From Dehalococcoidia bacterium (lineage in GTDB: Bacteria > Chloroflexota > Dehalococcoidia > Lucifugimonadales > Lucifugimonadaceae), in NCBI GenBank assembly GCA_029936485.1, contig JAPYSM010000004.1, positions 1-33,471 of the forward strand: DNA of 33,471 nucleotides, given 5' to 3'. A program made the position numbers and the translations under genes. This document shows positions 6,036 to 11,805 of the stretch, piece by piece; position 1 is the stretch's first letter, and each line of letters opens with the position of its first letter. The notes under the pieces were generated by a model. The model was not told the origin of the DNA and searched no databases. It worked only from the letters and a program-made list of their open reading frames with translations.

Positions 6036-6416
6036 TTAGGAACGCTGCTTTTCGAGTTGGCTCTGTTTCACCGGCGCCGTTTCTTCGGACTGCAACACCC
6101 CGGCTCGTCCGGCCAGCCGTCTCAACGACGATAGCAACATCTGGTAGTCCACGTGCGCCGACGCGGGCGTTGCGGAGACGACGATGTCATAACCCGGAAG
6201 GATCTCAAGTGTTGAGAAACACTCTCGCAACCGACGTTTGACCTTGTTCCTGGTTACAGAACCGCCGACCCGTTTACTGACCGCCAACCCGTATCGGCTG
6301 ATCTCGCTGTCTGATCTCGCAGATCCAAACGCCATAAGGCCATCACTCACGCGTCGTCCGCGTTTACGGACATAACGGAATTCAGCGCTTTTATGTAGTC
6401 TGGCAGCGTTGCGCAT
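6036..6416 (-). CDS. rnpA: Ribonuclease P protein component
   Basis: 126 aa MRNAARLHKSAEFRYVRKRGRRVS...YGLAVSKRVGGSVTRNKVKRRLRECF; RnpA signature (V)xRNxxKRRLRE; between rpmH and yidD. Confidence 0.95.
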   Translation of the reverse strand: MRNAARLHKSAEFRYVRKRGRRVSDGLMAFGSARSDSEISRYGLAVSKRVGGSVTRNKVKRRLRECFSTLEILPGYDIVVSATPASAHVDYQMLLSSLRRLAGRAGVLQSEETAPVKQSQLEKQRS

Positions 6417-6805: not shown

Positions 6806-7660
6806 ATGGTTGCCAAGTCAAAGGATACCGGAATCGACTCTGAAGCGGATGGTGTTTCCACCGTCACAGAAGCGCTTCGGAACTACACCCTGACAATCGC
6901 CGAGGACGACCGGCCCACTGCAAGCGCGGAGCTGGGAAGGTTCGTAAGGTGGTTGGGTAATGGCCGCTCGCTTGACTCACTGGCACCGCCAGAAATTGGC
7001 GACTACAGCGACCACATCGGAGCGCACGGAACGGCTCCCGACGCGGTTGACCGGCTGGCCATCGTAAAGCTCTTCCTTGCCCATCTGAAGAAGAAGGAAT
7101 ATATCGAGGTGAACCTTGCGCAGCACCTCCGGCTTCGAAGAGGACGCGGCACCGCTACCGCAGCAAGGATGGCATCAGCTGCCTCCGCGGGTACGGGAGC
7201 ACGACTAACCAAGTCAGGGCACCAGCAGATGCAAAATCAGCTGGCCGAGCTAATCATTCAGCGGACCCAGTTTTCGGAAGACATCCGAAAGGCTGCAGCT
7301 GACAAGGACGTCCGTGAGAACGCGCCGTTAGAAGCGGCGCGCGAGGCTCACGGTATGGTTAGCCTGAAGATCGGTGAGATTGAGGAGACCCTCAGGGGTG
7401 CCGAGATCATCACTGAGCGTAATGGCACACGAAAAAAAGGCGTCGTACGGCTTGGCGGTCGAGTGACCATCAAAGAACTCGGTTCCGGACGTGCTACGGC
7501 CGTCCAACTGGTCCACCCGGATGAGGCCAATCCTCTCTCAGGAAAGATGTCCAGCGGTTCGCCCGTCGGCGGAGCGATCATCGGCCACACGGTTGGCGAC
7601 ACAGTGACTGTTGATACGCCGGCCGGCAGGAAGAAGTTCGAGATCGTCAAGGCCAACTAG
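6806..7660 (+). CDS. GreA/GreB-family transcription elongation factor with N-terminal integrase core-binding (SAM-like) domain
   Basis: 284 aa. C-terminal half GreA-like: RLTKSGHQQMQNQLAELIIQRTQFSEDIRKAAADKDVRENAPLEAAREAHGMVSLKIGEIEETLRGAEII ... VGDTVTVDTPAGRKKFEIVKAN. N-terminal ~100 aa resembles XerC/D core-binding domain: ALRNYTLTIAEDDRPTASAELGRFVRWLGNGRSLDSLAPPEIGDYSDHI...AVDRLAIVKLFLAHLKKKEYIEVNLAQHLRLRRGRG. Confidence 0.85.
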   Translation: MVAKSKDTGIDSEADGVSTVTEALRNYTLTIAEDDRPTASAELGRFVRWLGNGRSLDSLAPPEIGDYSDHIGAHGTAPDAVDRLAIVKLFLAHLKKKEYIEVNLAQHLRLRRGRGTATAARMASAASAGTGARLTKSGHQQMQNQLAELIIQRTQFSEDIRKAAADKDVRENAPLEAAREAHGMVSLKIGEIEETLRGAEIITERNGTRKKGVVRLGGRVTIKELGSGRATAVQLVHPDEANPLSGKMSSGSPVGGAIIGHTVGDTVTVDTPAGRKKFEIVKAN

Positions 7661-7901: not shown

Positions 7902-8867
7902 ATGATGCTGTCAGACCAGCTATGGGTTTGGATTTCCTTCAACACGCTGTTGGTCATCTTGCTCTTCTTGGATCTCGTGGTCCTCGGTCGCGCCCGGACC
8001 GTCTCGATGCGGGAAGCGGTGCTCGGGACGATCTCCTGGACGGCTATAGCATTCGCCGTTAACGGGGCGATATTCTTCTTCGGTAGCAAGGCCGAGGGCA
8101 CGGATTTCCTGACCGCGTACATCGTTGAACGCGCGCTCAGTATCGACAACCTCTTCGTGTTTCTGGTGATCTTCACGTACTTCGGCGTCCCCAAACAGTT
8201 TCAGATGCGCGCACTGCTATGGGGGATCATCGGCGCACTTGTGGCGCGCGCCGTTTTCATCACAGCCGGTGTCGCCGTGATCAACGCTTTTGAGCCGGTC
8301 GTATATGTGCTCGGAGCCTTCCTCATCTACACGGCATACAAATTGGCAACGTCTGGCGACTCCGAGATAGACCCCGAGAGAAACATCGCTCTCAGGTTGG
8401 CCAGAAAGTACTTCACGGTATCCGACGATTACGACGGCCAAAAGATGTTCACGCGTATCGGCGGCAGCGCGCGTGCCATCACGCCCATGCTCCTCGTCGT
8501 CATCGTCCTCGCTACGACGGACGTCGTGTTCGCCGTTGACTCCATTCCATCGGTCCTGGCGATAACAACGGACGGCTTCATCGTCTGGAGTTCAAACGCC
8601 ATGGCGGTACTTGGCATGCGGCCGTTGTTCTTCGTTCTTGCCGGCGCTGTCGCTCATTTCCGATATCTCCAATACGGTCTCGCAGCGGTTCTAGGGTTCG
8701 TCGGATTCAAAATGATCTCGGAAGAGTTCATCCACATAGAGACCATCCTCTCCCTTGCCGTGATTGTGGCCGCTCTGGGGGTTAGCATGCTGGCGTCCTG
8801 GGTGTTGCCAGATCGGGATCCAGAAGAGGCCGATGGACCAGGAGAATCGACCGAGGTAGAGGGTTAA
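7902..8867 (+). CDS. TerC/Alx family integral membrane protein (putative Mn2+ or metal efflux)
   Basis: 321 aa polytopic; TerC motifs VERALSIDNLFVFLVIFTYF and VVIVLATTDVVFAVDSIPSVLAITTDGFIVWSSNAMAVLGMRPLFF. Confidence 0.92.
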   Translation: MMLSDQLWVWISFNTLLVILLFLDLVVLGRARTVSMREAVLGTISWTAIAFAVNGAIFFFGSKAEGTDFLTAYIVERALSIDNLFVFLVIFTYFGVPKQFQMRALLWGIIGALVARAVFITAGVAVINAFEPVVYVLGAFLIYTAYKLATSGDSEIDPERNIALRLARKYFTVSDDYDGQKMFTRIGGSARAITPMLLVVIVLATTDVVFAVDSIPSVLAITTDGFIVWSSNAMAVLGMRPLFFVLAGAVAHFRYLQYGLAAVLGFVGFKMISEEFIHIETILSLAVIVAALGVSMLASWVLPDRDPEEADGPGESTEVEG

Positions 8868-8913: not shown

Positions 8914-11805
8914 ATGGCCATCAGTGCGCGGAGCGATCTCGCTGCAGACCTTAGAAGTGTCGTGCAGGGTGAGGTCCGATTCGACAGCTACTCTCGTGCC
9001 CTTTACAGCCAGGACGCCAGCATTTACTCGATGGAGCCAGCAGGGGTGGTCCTGCCGAAGTCCGTGGAGGACACTCAGGCCGTCCTTGAGATCTGTAACC
9101 GCAATGGTGTGAAGGTGCTAAGCCGTGGCGGCGGGACCGGGTTGTCCGGCCAAACGGTGCAGGAAGGCGCAGTCGTCATCGATTACACCAAGTACATGCA
9201 CGATGTGCTTGAGATCAATGTGGAAGAGCAGTGGGTCCGCACCCAACCCGGCATAACGCTCACAGAGTTGAACCGGCAATTGCGTCCACACGGCCTGATG
9301 TTCACACCTGACCCGAGCACAGCCAGCCGGGCTACTGTCGGCGGGGCGATGGGCAACAACTCCTGTGGCGCGCACTCGATCATCTATGGAAAGACCGTTG
9401 ACCATGTGCTTGGGCAGGACGTTGTTCTCTCCGACGGAGGTATTGCCAATTTTGAAAACGTCTCCGGTGCCGCACTGGAGGCCAAGTTAAGGGTCGGCGG
9501 ACTTGAGGGCGATATTTATCGCACCGTCCGCGACGTTGCGTCACGTGCCGCCCCGCTTGTCGAGGCTAATTTCCCGAAGGTGTTAAGACGGGTCGGCGGT
9601 TACAACCTTGACCTCGTGAATGAGCCGGGCGGACTCAACCTCGCACAGCTCATGGTCGGTTCTGAGGGCACGCTGGCCGCCGTCACGTCCGCGCGACTGA
9701 ACCTCGTGAAAATCCCCGAGTTTTCCGGACTCGCCGTCCTGCATTTCAAGGGTCTGGACGAGGCGATGGAGGCCACCGTCGCCACGCTTGAGCACGATCC
9801 ATCTGCGGTCGAGCACATCGGCGCGATCATCATCACGCAGGCCCGCCGACACATCAGCTTCTCCCGGAATCTCGGCTTCCTTCAGGGCGAGCCGACTGAC
9901 ATTCTCGTCGTCGAGTTCAACGGGAATTCTCAAGAGGAGATCTCTGACAAGTTCGACAAACTCGAACAGGACATGACCCGAAAAGAACTCGGGTTCGCCG
10001 TGACACGACTCCACACCGCGGCCGAACAGGCCCAAGTGTGGTCCATGCGCGAGAACGGACTCGGGCTGATGAATAACATCGAGGGCAGCGCCAAACCGCT
10101 TCCGTTTGTGGAAGACACCGCCGTCGCACCCGAAAAGTTGCCCGAGTACGTACGTCGATTCCAAGAGATCATAAAGAACTCCGGCACCGAGGCCGGCTAC
10201 TACGGCCACGCCTCAGTGGGCTGCATGCACATCCGTCCGTTGATCGACATCAAAACCCGAGAGGGCATGGATCGGCTCTACAAGATCAGTGACGAGGTGT
10301 CCGATCTCCTGAAGGAGTTCGGTGGTTCCATGACCGGAGAGCACGGCGATGGTATTGTGCGCGGTTTCTGGACCGAGAAGATGTTTGGATCGGAGTTGGT
10401 TGAGAACTTCCGCGAGGTGAAGAGGGCGTTCGACCCAAAGACGATCATGAATCCGGGGAAGATTTTCGATACGCCCCACATTCTGGATAATCTGCGATTT
10501 GGCGATGAATACCATTCGCACGAAATTGAAACGCGCCTGGACTTCACGGCCGAAGGCGGCTTTGCCGGAGCCGTCGAGATGTGCAACGGCGTCGGCGCGT
10601 GCCGCAAGCTCAACCTGGGTGCCATGTGCCCTTCGTACATGGCGACCCGCGAGGAGGAGCACACGACGCGCGGCCGGGCAAACGTGCTTCGGGCGGCGAT
10701 CTCGGGCAAGTTCCCGGTCGATCAACTTACCTCCAAGCGTACATTCGAAGTGCTGGACCTTTGCCTGGAGTGCAAGTCATGTAAGGCGGAATGCCCCTCA
10801 AATGTGGACATGGCCAAGATCAAATACGAGTTCCTCCATCAGTACTACAAGACCCACAAGGTGCCGCGGCGTTCAAGGATGGTCGCCGATATCCACAAGA
10901 CGAACGCCCGAATGGCGCCGATCGCCCCGGTAGCGAACGCCATAACTCAGAGCGCTCCGATGCGGTGGGCGCTGGACAAACTTGTTGGCTTTTCATCGGA
11001 TCGGCCTGCGCCTCCAGTGGTCCGGAACACCTTCCAGAGGTGGTTCGACAAACGGAAGGCGCCGACCGGAACGTTCCCCCGCGGACAAATCGTGCTGTTC
11101 CACGACACCTTCATGAATTTCAACTACCCGTCGATCGGCGTCGCAGCGACGGACCTGCTTGAGGCACTCGGTTTCGAGGTCATCATCCTCAAAGACCGCA
11201 AGTGCTGCGGTCGCCCGATGATCTCAAAGGGGCTGCTGGACATGGCCGGCGAGAACGCCCGTTACAACGTCGATCTCCTGTACGAGTACGTTGAGCGCGG
11301 GATCAAGATCGCCGGTTGTGAGTCATCGTGTGTGATGACGATCAAGGACGAATACCCTGATCTCCTGGGCGGGGATGAAAAGGCTCGAGCGGTTGCGGAT
11401 AACACCGTGATGCTTGAGGAAATCATCGCCAACTGCCTTGGCGATGATGGGCCACAGCTTGAGTTCACAAATATGTCAAAGAAGGTCCAGTTTCTGGGCC
11501 ACTGTCACCAACGGGCGCTCACCGGCCTCAATTCCAGTATCAAGGCGCTAAACCTGCCACCTAACTTCGAGGTGATTGATATCCCGGCCGGTTGCTGCGG
11601 CATGGCGGGATCTTTCGGATACGAAAAAGAGCACGTCGAGGTGTCCATGGCTGCTGGCGAAGAGCGTTTCTTCCCATATGTCCGGAACAATCCAGACGCA
11701 GAGGTTTGCGTCACCGGCATCTCGTGCCGGGAACAGACATCCTTTGGCACGGGCCGTACCGCACGTCACCTCGTGGAAGTGCTGGCCGACGCTCTGAAGA
11801 AATAG
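8914..11805 (+). CDS. FAD-linked oxidase / (Fe-S)-binding fusion (D-lactate/glycolate dehydrogenase-type)
   Basis: 963 aa; FAD PCMH segment (VKVLSRGGGTGLSGQTV, FTPDPSTASRATVGGAMGNNSCGAHSIIYG), FAD-oxidase C-terminal (GSMTGEHGDGIVRGFWTEKMFG), Fe-S cluster cysteines (CLECKSCKAECPSNV) and CCG-type motifs (CCGRP, CCGMAGSFGYEKEH). Confidence 0.93.
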   Translation: MAISARSDLAADLRSVVQGEVRFDSYSRALYSQDASIYSMEPAGVVLPKSVEDTQAVLEICNRNGVKVLSRGGGTGLSGQTVQEGAVVIDYTKYMHDVLEINVEEQWVRTQPGITLTELNRQLRPHGLMFTPDPSTASRATVGGAMGNNSCGAHSIIYGKTVDHVLGQDVVLSDGGIANFENVSGAALEAKLRVGGLEGDIYRTVRDVASRAAPLVEANFPKVLRRVGGYNLDLVNEPGGLNLAQLMVGSEGTLAAVTSARLNLVKIPEFSGLAVLHFKGLDEAMEATVATLEHDPSAVEHIGAIIITQARRHISFSRNLGFLQGEPTDILVVEFNGNSQEEISDKFDKLEQDMTRKELGFAVTRLHTAAEQAQVWSMRENGLGLMNNIEGSAKPLPFVEDTAVAPEKLPEYVRRFQEIIKNSGTEAGYYGHASVGCMHIRPLIDIKTREGMDRLYKISDEVSDLLKEFGGSMTGEHGDGIVRGFWTEKMFGSELVENFREVKRAFDPKTIMNPGKIFDTPHILDNLRFGDEYHSHEIETRLDFTAEGGFAGAVEMCNGVGACRKLNLGAMCPSYMATREEEHTTRGRANVLRAAISGKFPVDQLTSKRTFEVLDLCLECKSCKAECPSNVDMAKIKYEFLHQYYKTHKVPRRSRMVADIHKTNARMAPIAPVANAITQSAPMRWALDKLVGFSSDRPAPPVVRNTFQRWFDKRKAPTGTFPRGQIVLFHDTFMNFNYPSIGVAATDLLEALGFEVIILKDRKCCGRPMISKGLLDMAGENARYNVDLLYEYVERGIKIAGCESSCVMTIKDEYPDLLGGDEKARAVADNTVMLEEIIANCLGDDGPQLEFTNMSKKVQFLGHCHQRALTGLNSSIKALNLPPNFEVIDIPAGCCGMAGSFGYEKEHVEVSMAAGEERFFPYVRNNPDAEVCVTGISCREQTSFGTGRTARHLVEVLADALKK

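Follow-up and report, generated by a model that had tools for sequence, protein, structure and literature searches.

A GreA-family protein fused to a tyrosine-recombinase core-binding fold is widespread in Chloroflexota

Gre factors are, to our knowledge, nearly universal and normally lack a DNA-binding domain. The canonical members, GreA and GreB (PF03449 plus PF01272; E. coli GreA, 1GRJ), consist of a coiled coil with an Asp and a Glu at its tip, within the sequence G-D-L-S-E-N-A-E-Y, and an FKBP-like C-terminal domain. Gre factors bring these two acids into the active center and take the place of the trigger loop in hydrolyzing backtracked RNA (PMC4598747). Core-binding (CB) domains, in turn, are the N-terminal part of tyrosine recombinases (PF02899, PF13495; 3NRW, lambda Int, XerA), and when separated from the catalytic domain their binding to DNA is usually weak. 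Here we describe a protein, CB-GreA, that joins the two. It shares the coiled coil, the FKBP-like domain, and the tip Asp and Glu with GreA/GreB and adds an N-terminal CB domain and a linker. With the recombinase N-domains it has in common the four-helix fold and the basic residues of helix D, but the R-H-R-Y catalytic domain is absent and the CB domain is joined to GreA instead; CB-GreA is not a recombinase. Thermus Gfh1 also has the GreA fold but carries an Asp cluster where CB-GreA has a DVREN tip. Two NCBIfam GreA fusions, PRK06330.1 ("transcript cleavage factor/unknown domain fusion protein," 718-residue class) and PRK14720.1 (906-residue class), likewise have GreA at the C terminus; their match to CB-GreA covers the GreA part.

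The CB-GreA gene lies at 6806..7660 on the plus strand of the window, the whole stretch of 33,471 nucleotides that was analyzed, which is contig C34 of a draft genome (2.25 Mb, 87% complete). Its nearest named relatives are in metagenome genomes of Dehalococcoidia/SAR202, with Candidatus Lucifugimonas marina among the matches. The frame runs uninterrupted from an ATG and encodes 284 residues plus a stop, and start and length are identical in congeners. In the full-length AlphaFold model, four helices and a short fifth are followed by a disordered linker (residues 112 to 130) and then by GreA. The preliminary description of this DNA had proposed a GreA fused to an integrase core-binding domain, with the tip acids kept and no recombinase catalytic domain. 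Pfam, AlphaFold, Foldseek, hhalign, and the tip alignment all agree with the fusion, and Pfam identifies the C-terminal part as GreA. The coiled coil occupies residues 132 to 201 (7199..7408, plus strand), with model helices at 136 to 165 and 173 to 198, and matches GreA_GreB_N at residues 134 to 201 (E 1.3e-11). The FKBP-like domain occupies residues 211 to 284 (7436..7657, plus strand) and matches GreA_GreB (PF01272) at 211 to 282 (E 1.3e-21); both matches exceed the gathering cutoffs. A Foldseek search with the full model returned GreA/Gfh1 matches with E values down to 1.5e-14 and TMt of 0.83 to 0.90 to six GreA/Gfh1/GreB structures. CB-GreA scores below all NCBIfam GreA cutoffs (111.5 versus 139 bits for TIGR01462 and 114.4 versus 145 for NF001263), and it is thus a divergent variant rather than a standard GreA equivalog. 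Its catalytic tip, D168-V-R-E171-N172 (7307..7321, plus strand), aligns with D41-L-K-E44-N45 of E. coli GreA, and Asp and Glu fill the D41 and E44 columns in 161 of 161 fused proteins. The tip mostly reads D-K/G-D-x-R-E-N-A-P-L/Y; some fused proteins outside the Dehalococcoidia class have the more canonical GDLSENAGY.

The CB domain spans residues 16 to 111 (6851..7138, plus strand), with helices at 20 to 28, 36 to 50, 61 to 74, 77 to 96, and 104 to 107 in the AlphaFold model. Residues 1 to 131 of the window protein alone have no Pfam match, and among 35 diverse relatives in the family alignment, PF02899 matches nine N-domains and PF13495 eight. AlphaFold folded the isolated N-domain with a pLDDT of 90.2 and a pTM of 0.84. 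When this model was compared to the PDB with Foldseek, the first 19 matches were all integrase or recombinase chains (best E 0.011), and the integrase N-domain 3nrw aligned with TM values of 0.79 and 0.77. The same entry is the best PDB hit of the N-domain profile (E 0.013). Since the Foldseek E values are modest, the case for the fold leans on the agreement of independent methods. Indeed, hhalign paired the N-domain with CB domains chosen via Pfam, and not via our profile, at a probability of 94.3% (E 1e-7), while six reversed or column-shuffled decoys reached at most 0.44%. The profile also retrieved true tyrosine recombinases, told by the catalytic motifs in their sequences, from 300 Chloroflexota genomes (E 1.5e-8 to 1e-3). 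The N-domain is therefore a genuine tyrosine-recombinase core-binding fold, as first supposed, and these searches together with the Pfam matches of relatives exclude the alternative that it is not an integrase fold. A flexible linker of about 20 residues (112 to 131; 7139..7198, plus strand), with pLDDT below 50 over 112 to 130 and fast sequence drift, connects it to GreA.

We collected 161 distinct CB-GreA sequences from Chloroflexota, a phylum to which the oceanic SAR202 group and Dehalococcoides belong. That the same architecture recurs in so many sequences from many genomes excludes two genes merged by an assembly error. A match is present in 143 of 148 genomes of the class, the large majority of matches spanning the N-domain too, and a search with the N-domain alone found it in 37 of 40 close relatives. 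Outside the class, at least 15 more Chloroflexota families have fused proteins; the survey of the architecture that was suggested at the outset finds it widespread. Among the 148 class genomes, family f10 is one of the few families with no CB-GreA detected, and two genomes that are 90 to 95% complete (G052 of f49 and G070 of f54) gave no Gre match. At two loci (L237:480-1025 and L239, ORF from 447), a protein with the CB-GreA-type tip DKD[VF]RENAPL has no detectable CB domain in the fetched stretch, a possible secondary loss of that domain. In a tree built without the tip columns, the majority of fused GreA domains form one group (SH-aLRT 90), and a second fused group comprises f106, f129, and f140 (SH-aLRT 96); the tree is poorly resolved, and one and two fusion events are therefore inseparable on it. 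Core-binding domains have been reused elsewhere: family f126 encodes proteins of about 355 to 363 residues (L182:861-1925 and L186:950-2038, both plus strand) with an N-terminal Phage_int_SAM_1 domain and a MerR-type helix-turn-helix at about residues 237 to 302.

The divergent neighbor of the CB-GreA gene is the RNase P protein gene rnpA (6036..6416, minus strand); about 80 SAR202-type loci were compared, and 45 of them contain a rnpA homologue. Downstream on the plus strand lie genes for a TerC-family membrane protein (7902..8867; 42 loci) and an FAD-linked oxidase/Fe-S protein (8914..11805; 59 loci), all three neighbors being assigned by Pfam. Synteny is stable within SAR202, the N-domain had no match in 50,697 phage records, and none of 54 plasmid matches reached 80% protein coverage. 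On these grounds we rejected a mobile or phage gene.

We then considered the other Gre proteins of these genomes. The preliminary description had raised the possibility of a canonical stand-alone greA; none was found in the source genome (87% complete), where CB-GreA is the only GreA_GreB match, and the copies in relatives are nearly always without the catalytic tip. CB-GreA is likewise the only Gre found in two genomes of family f1 (G013 and G049). Closed genomes of the Dehalococcoides-type family f17 have one PF03449 match each, and about 39 of 147 class genomes have a single Gre, as counted from match numbers. Many CB-GreA genomes also encode a stand-alone GreA of about 155 residues. In genomes classed as CB-GreA positive, a class assigned by hand from match listings with 22 rows left unclassified, the acid pair is missing from 90 of 92 stand-alone copies. 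Degenerate tips include GGTENNAEY, LGTSQNDAEY, and FGDTVDNAEY. The remaining two copies are one in f2, with the tip E-L-gap-E-S-A, and one in G305 on a long branch. In a first sample of genomes lacking CB-GreA, the tip acids were kept in 33 of 33 stand-alone copies; these genomes were the top profile scorers and hence a biased sample, which we checked with 20 lower-scoring ones. A D/E..E copy is kept in 18 of these 20 (G216 is without one, and G188 is too fragmented). Second GreA copies in f102 and f116, which lack CB-GreA, have D..D, with Asp in place of E44; second copies thus decay outside CB lineages as well. The data are fairly summed up by saying that almost all genomes retain one Gre with an acidic tip and that in CB lineages this is the fused one. 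These observations are only partly independent phylogenetically: CB presence and tip loss involve five to six changes on a weak tree, and with one supported independent contrast there are too few events for significance.

The tip-degenerate stand-alone genes are found at L229-L236, L238, L250, L252, L255, L260-L262, most of L263-L349, and L382-L407, for the most part in genomes that encode CB-GreA too. Genomes G005 (L236), G065 (L250), and G095 (L272), as well as family f10, have two or three tip-degenerate copies and no CB-GreA detected, and one pair at L236 is in tandem. Such genomes are possibly without any cleavage-competent Gre. Like Gfh1, the degenerate paralogues are Gre relatives that lack a GreA-type tip, and they may be anti-cleavage or pause factors.

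Taken together, these observations lead us to favor, with some reserve, the view that CB-GreA is the organism's cleavage-competent Gre and that its CB domain makes a weak, largely sequence-independent contact with DNA beside the elongation complex. We infer the cleavage activity, the placement on the polymerase, and the DNA contact from homology and conservation. The coiled coil would enter the secondary channel of RNA polymerase, where D168 and E171, judging from family knowledge and their invariance, would activate the hydrolysis of RNA in backtracked complexes. Homology to Gre/Gfh1-polymerase structures suggests that the roughly 20-residue linker joins the coiled coil outside the channel, and nearby DNA would plausibly be in reach of the exapted CB domain, whose weak, largely nonspecific contacts next to the elongation complex could keep the factor on or near a transcribing or stalled polymerase. 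We assign cleavage to CB-GreA because the stand-alone GreA, where it persists, is nearly always tip-less; the invariant tip and single-copy status point the same way. The preliminary description had also imagined action at specific loci or repair sites. We found no support for this: CB-GreA is the general, and often the only, Gre of these bacteria, which makes a global role more likely than a locus-specific one.

How the CB domain contributes can be judged from its surface and its history. Mean net charge is +4.0 for fused N-domains (n = 151) versus +4.7 for recombinase-type CB domains (n = 12). Position 88 is Lys or Arg in all fused N-domains and all compared recombinases, position 83 is basic in 91%, and positions 109 and 112 are basic in 97 to 99%. 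This likeness to recombinases in average charge and helix-D basic positions favors a retained contact with DNA, and with the invariant tip it makes the proposed DNA-tethered anti-backtracking factor plausible at the level of sequence. As a counterweight, the N-domain of the window protein itself has a net charge of just +1. The weak DNA binding usual for isolated CB domains, the lack of a detectable CB domain at L237 and L239, and the lack of CB-GreA in a few class families such as f10 also speak against the favored view. The low charge of the window protein would suit a CB domain that no longer binds DNA and serves as a protein-interaction module, positioning GreA by docking on another factor or on RNA polymerase, at a surface specific to the lineage. 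The most invariant N-domain residues are W49, G51, R54, L104, and H107, whose role could be structural or protein binding; W49, G51, and H107 are candidates for a conserved non-basic docking surface, and the T-x-x-x-Y segment typical of helix B in Xer CB domains is absent from the fused domains. Against the recombinase-like average charge and helix-D positions, we regard docking as a possible but rather unlikely explanation. It is far less believable, indeed very improbable, that the N-domain is a neutral passenger, left without a function by an ancient chance fusion. The two proteins with the CB-GreA-type tip and no detectable CB domain (L237 and L239) would fit such a passenger, but the domain is kept across most of the class and in 15 or more families beyond it. 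Moreover, it is under purifying selection: its dN/dS is 0.03 to 0.15 between congeners and reaches 0.20 at most when more distant relatives are compared, on a par with the GreA part or somewhat above it. The linker next to it drifts and, in six of seven comparisons, collects replacements faster than either of the other two regions. Selection and distribution thus largely refute a passenger.

The GreA part could also act in the opposite direction, as a Gfh1-like inhibitor of cleavage. Among PDB sequences, CB-GreA matches Thermus Gfh1 and a GreA/Gfh1 chimera best, and tip acids do not guarantee cleavage, since Gfh1 has them and cannot hydrolyze RNA (PMC4598747). The tip of CB-GreA, however, is of the GreA type, D-x-x-E-N, and not an Asp cluster, and many genomes have no Gre besides this protein, so we consider an inhibitor improbable. 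With CB-GreA as the cleavage factor, a two-factor Gre system can be envisaged, more tentatively, in which the DNA-tethered protein carries out all cleavage and the former housekeeping GreA, now tip-less, competes for the secondary channel or stabilizes pauses as its antagonist. If true, cleavage and anti-cleavage factors would have arisen here as a pair of independent origin, in principle like GreA and Gfh1 of Thermus.

The fusion also bears on the annotation of Dehalococcoides. GreA of D. mccartyi CBDB1 (cbdbA743) is reported from a proteome study to be strongly acetylated at K17 in stationary phase (PMC7918482). The GreA ORFs of three related Dehalococcoides-type genomes (L224-L226, f17) have 265 to 266 residues and include the CB domain. 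In these full ORFs position 17 is Asn or Ser, and the 17th residue counted from the internal Met116 (MTASGYKKLEDEL..LK) is Lys. K17 thus fits numbering from Met116, and, judging from the related genomes, the CBDB1 entry probably starts at the GreA part; this points to truncation of some deposited GreA entries.

A word search of a library of open-access papers found no published description of the CB-GreA fusion. The component families are known; the fusion, its breadth, and the loss of the tip in paralogues appear to be new from this survey of Chloroflexota. Across a large part of the phylum, including cultured Dehalococcoides-type bacteria, the often sole Gre factor carries a recombinase-derived DNA-binding fold. 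CB-GreA makes it testable whether tethering affects where and how backtracked polymerase is rescued, and the loss of catalytic residues from the companion GreA is a natural experiment in the division of work between secondary-channel factors.
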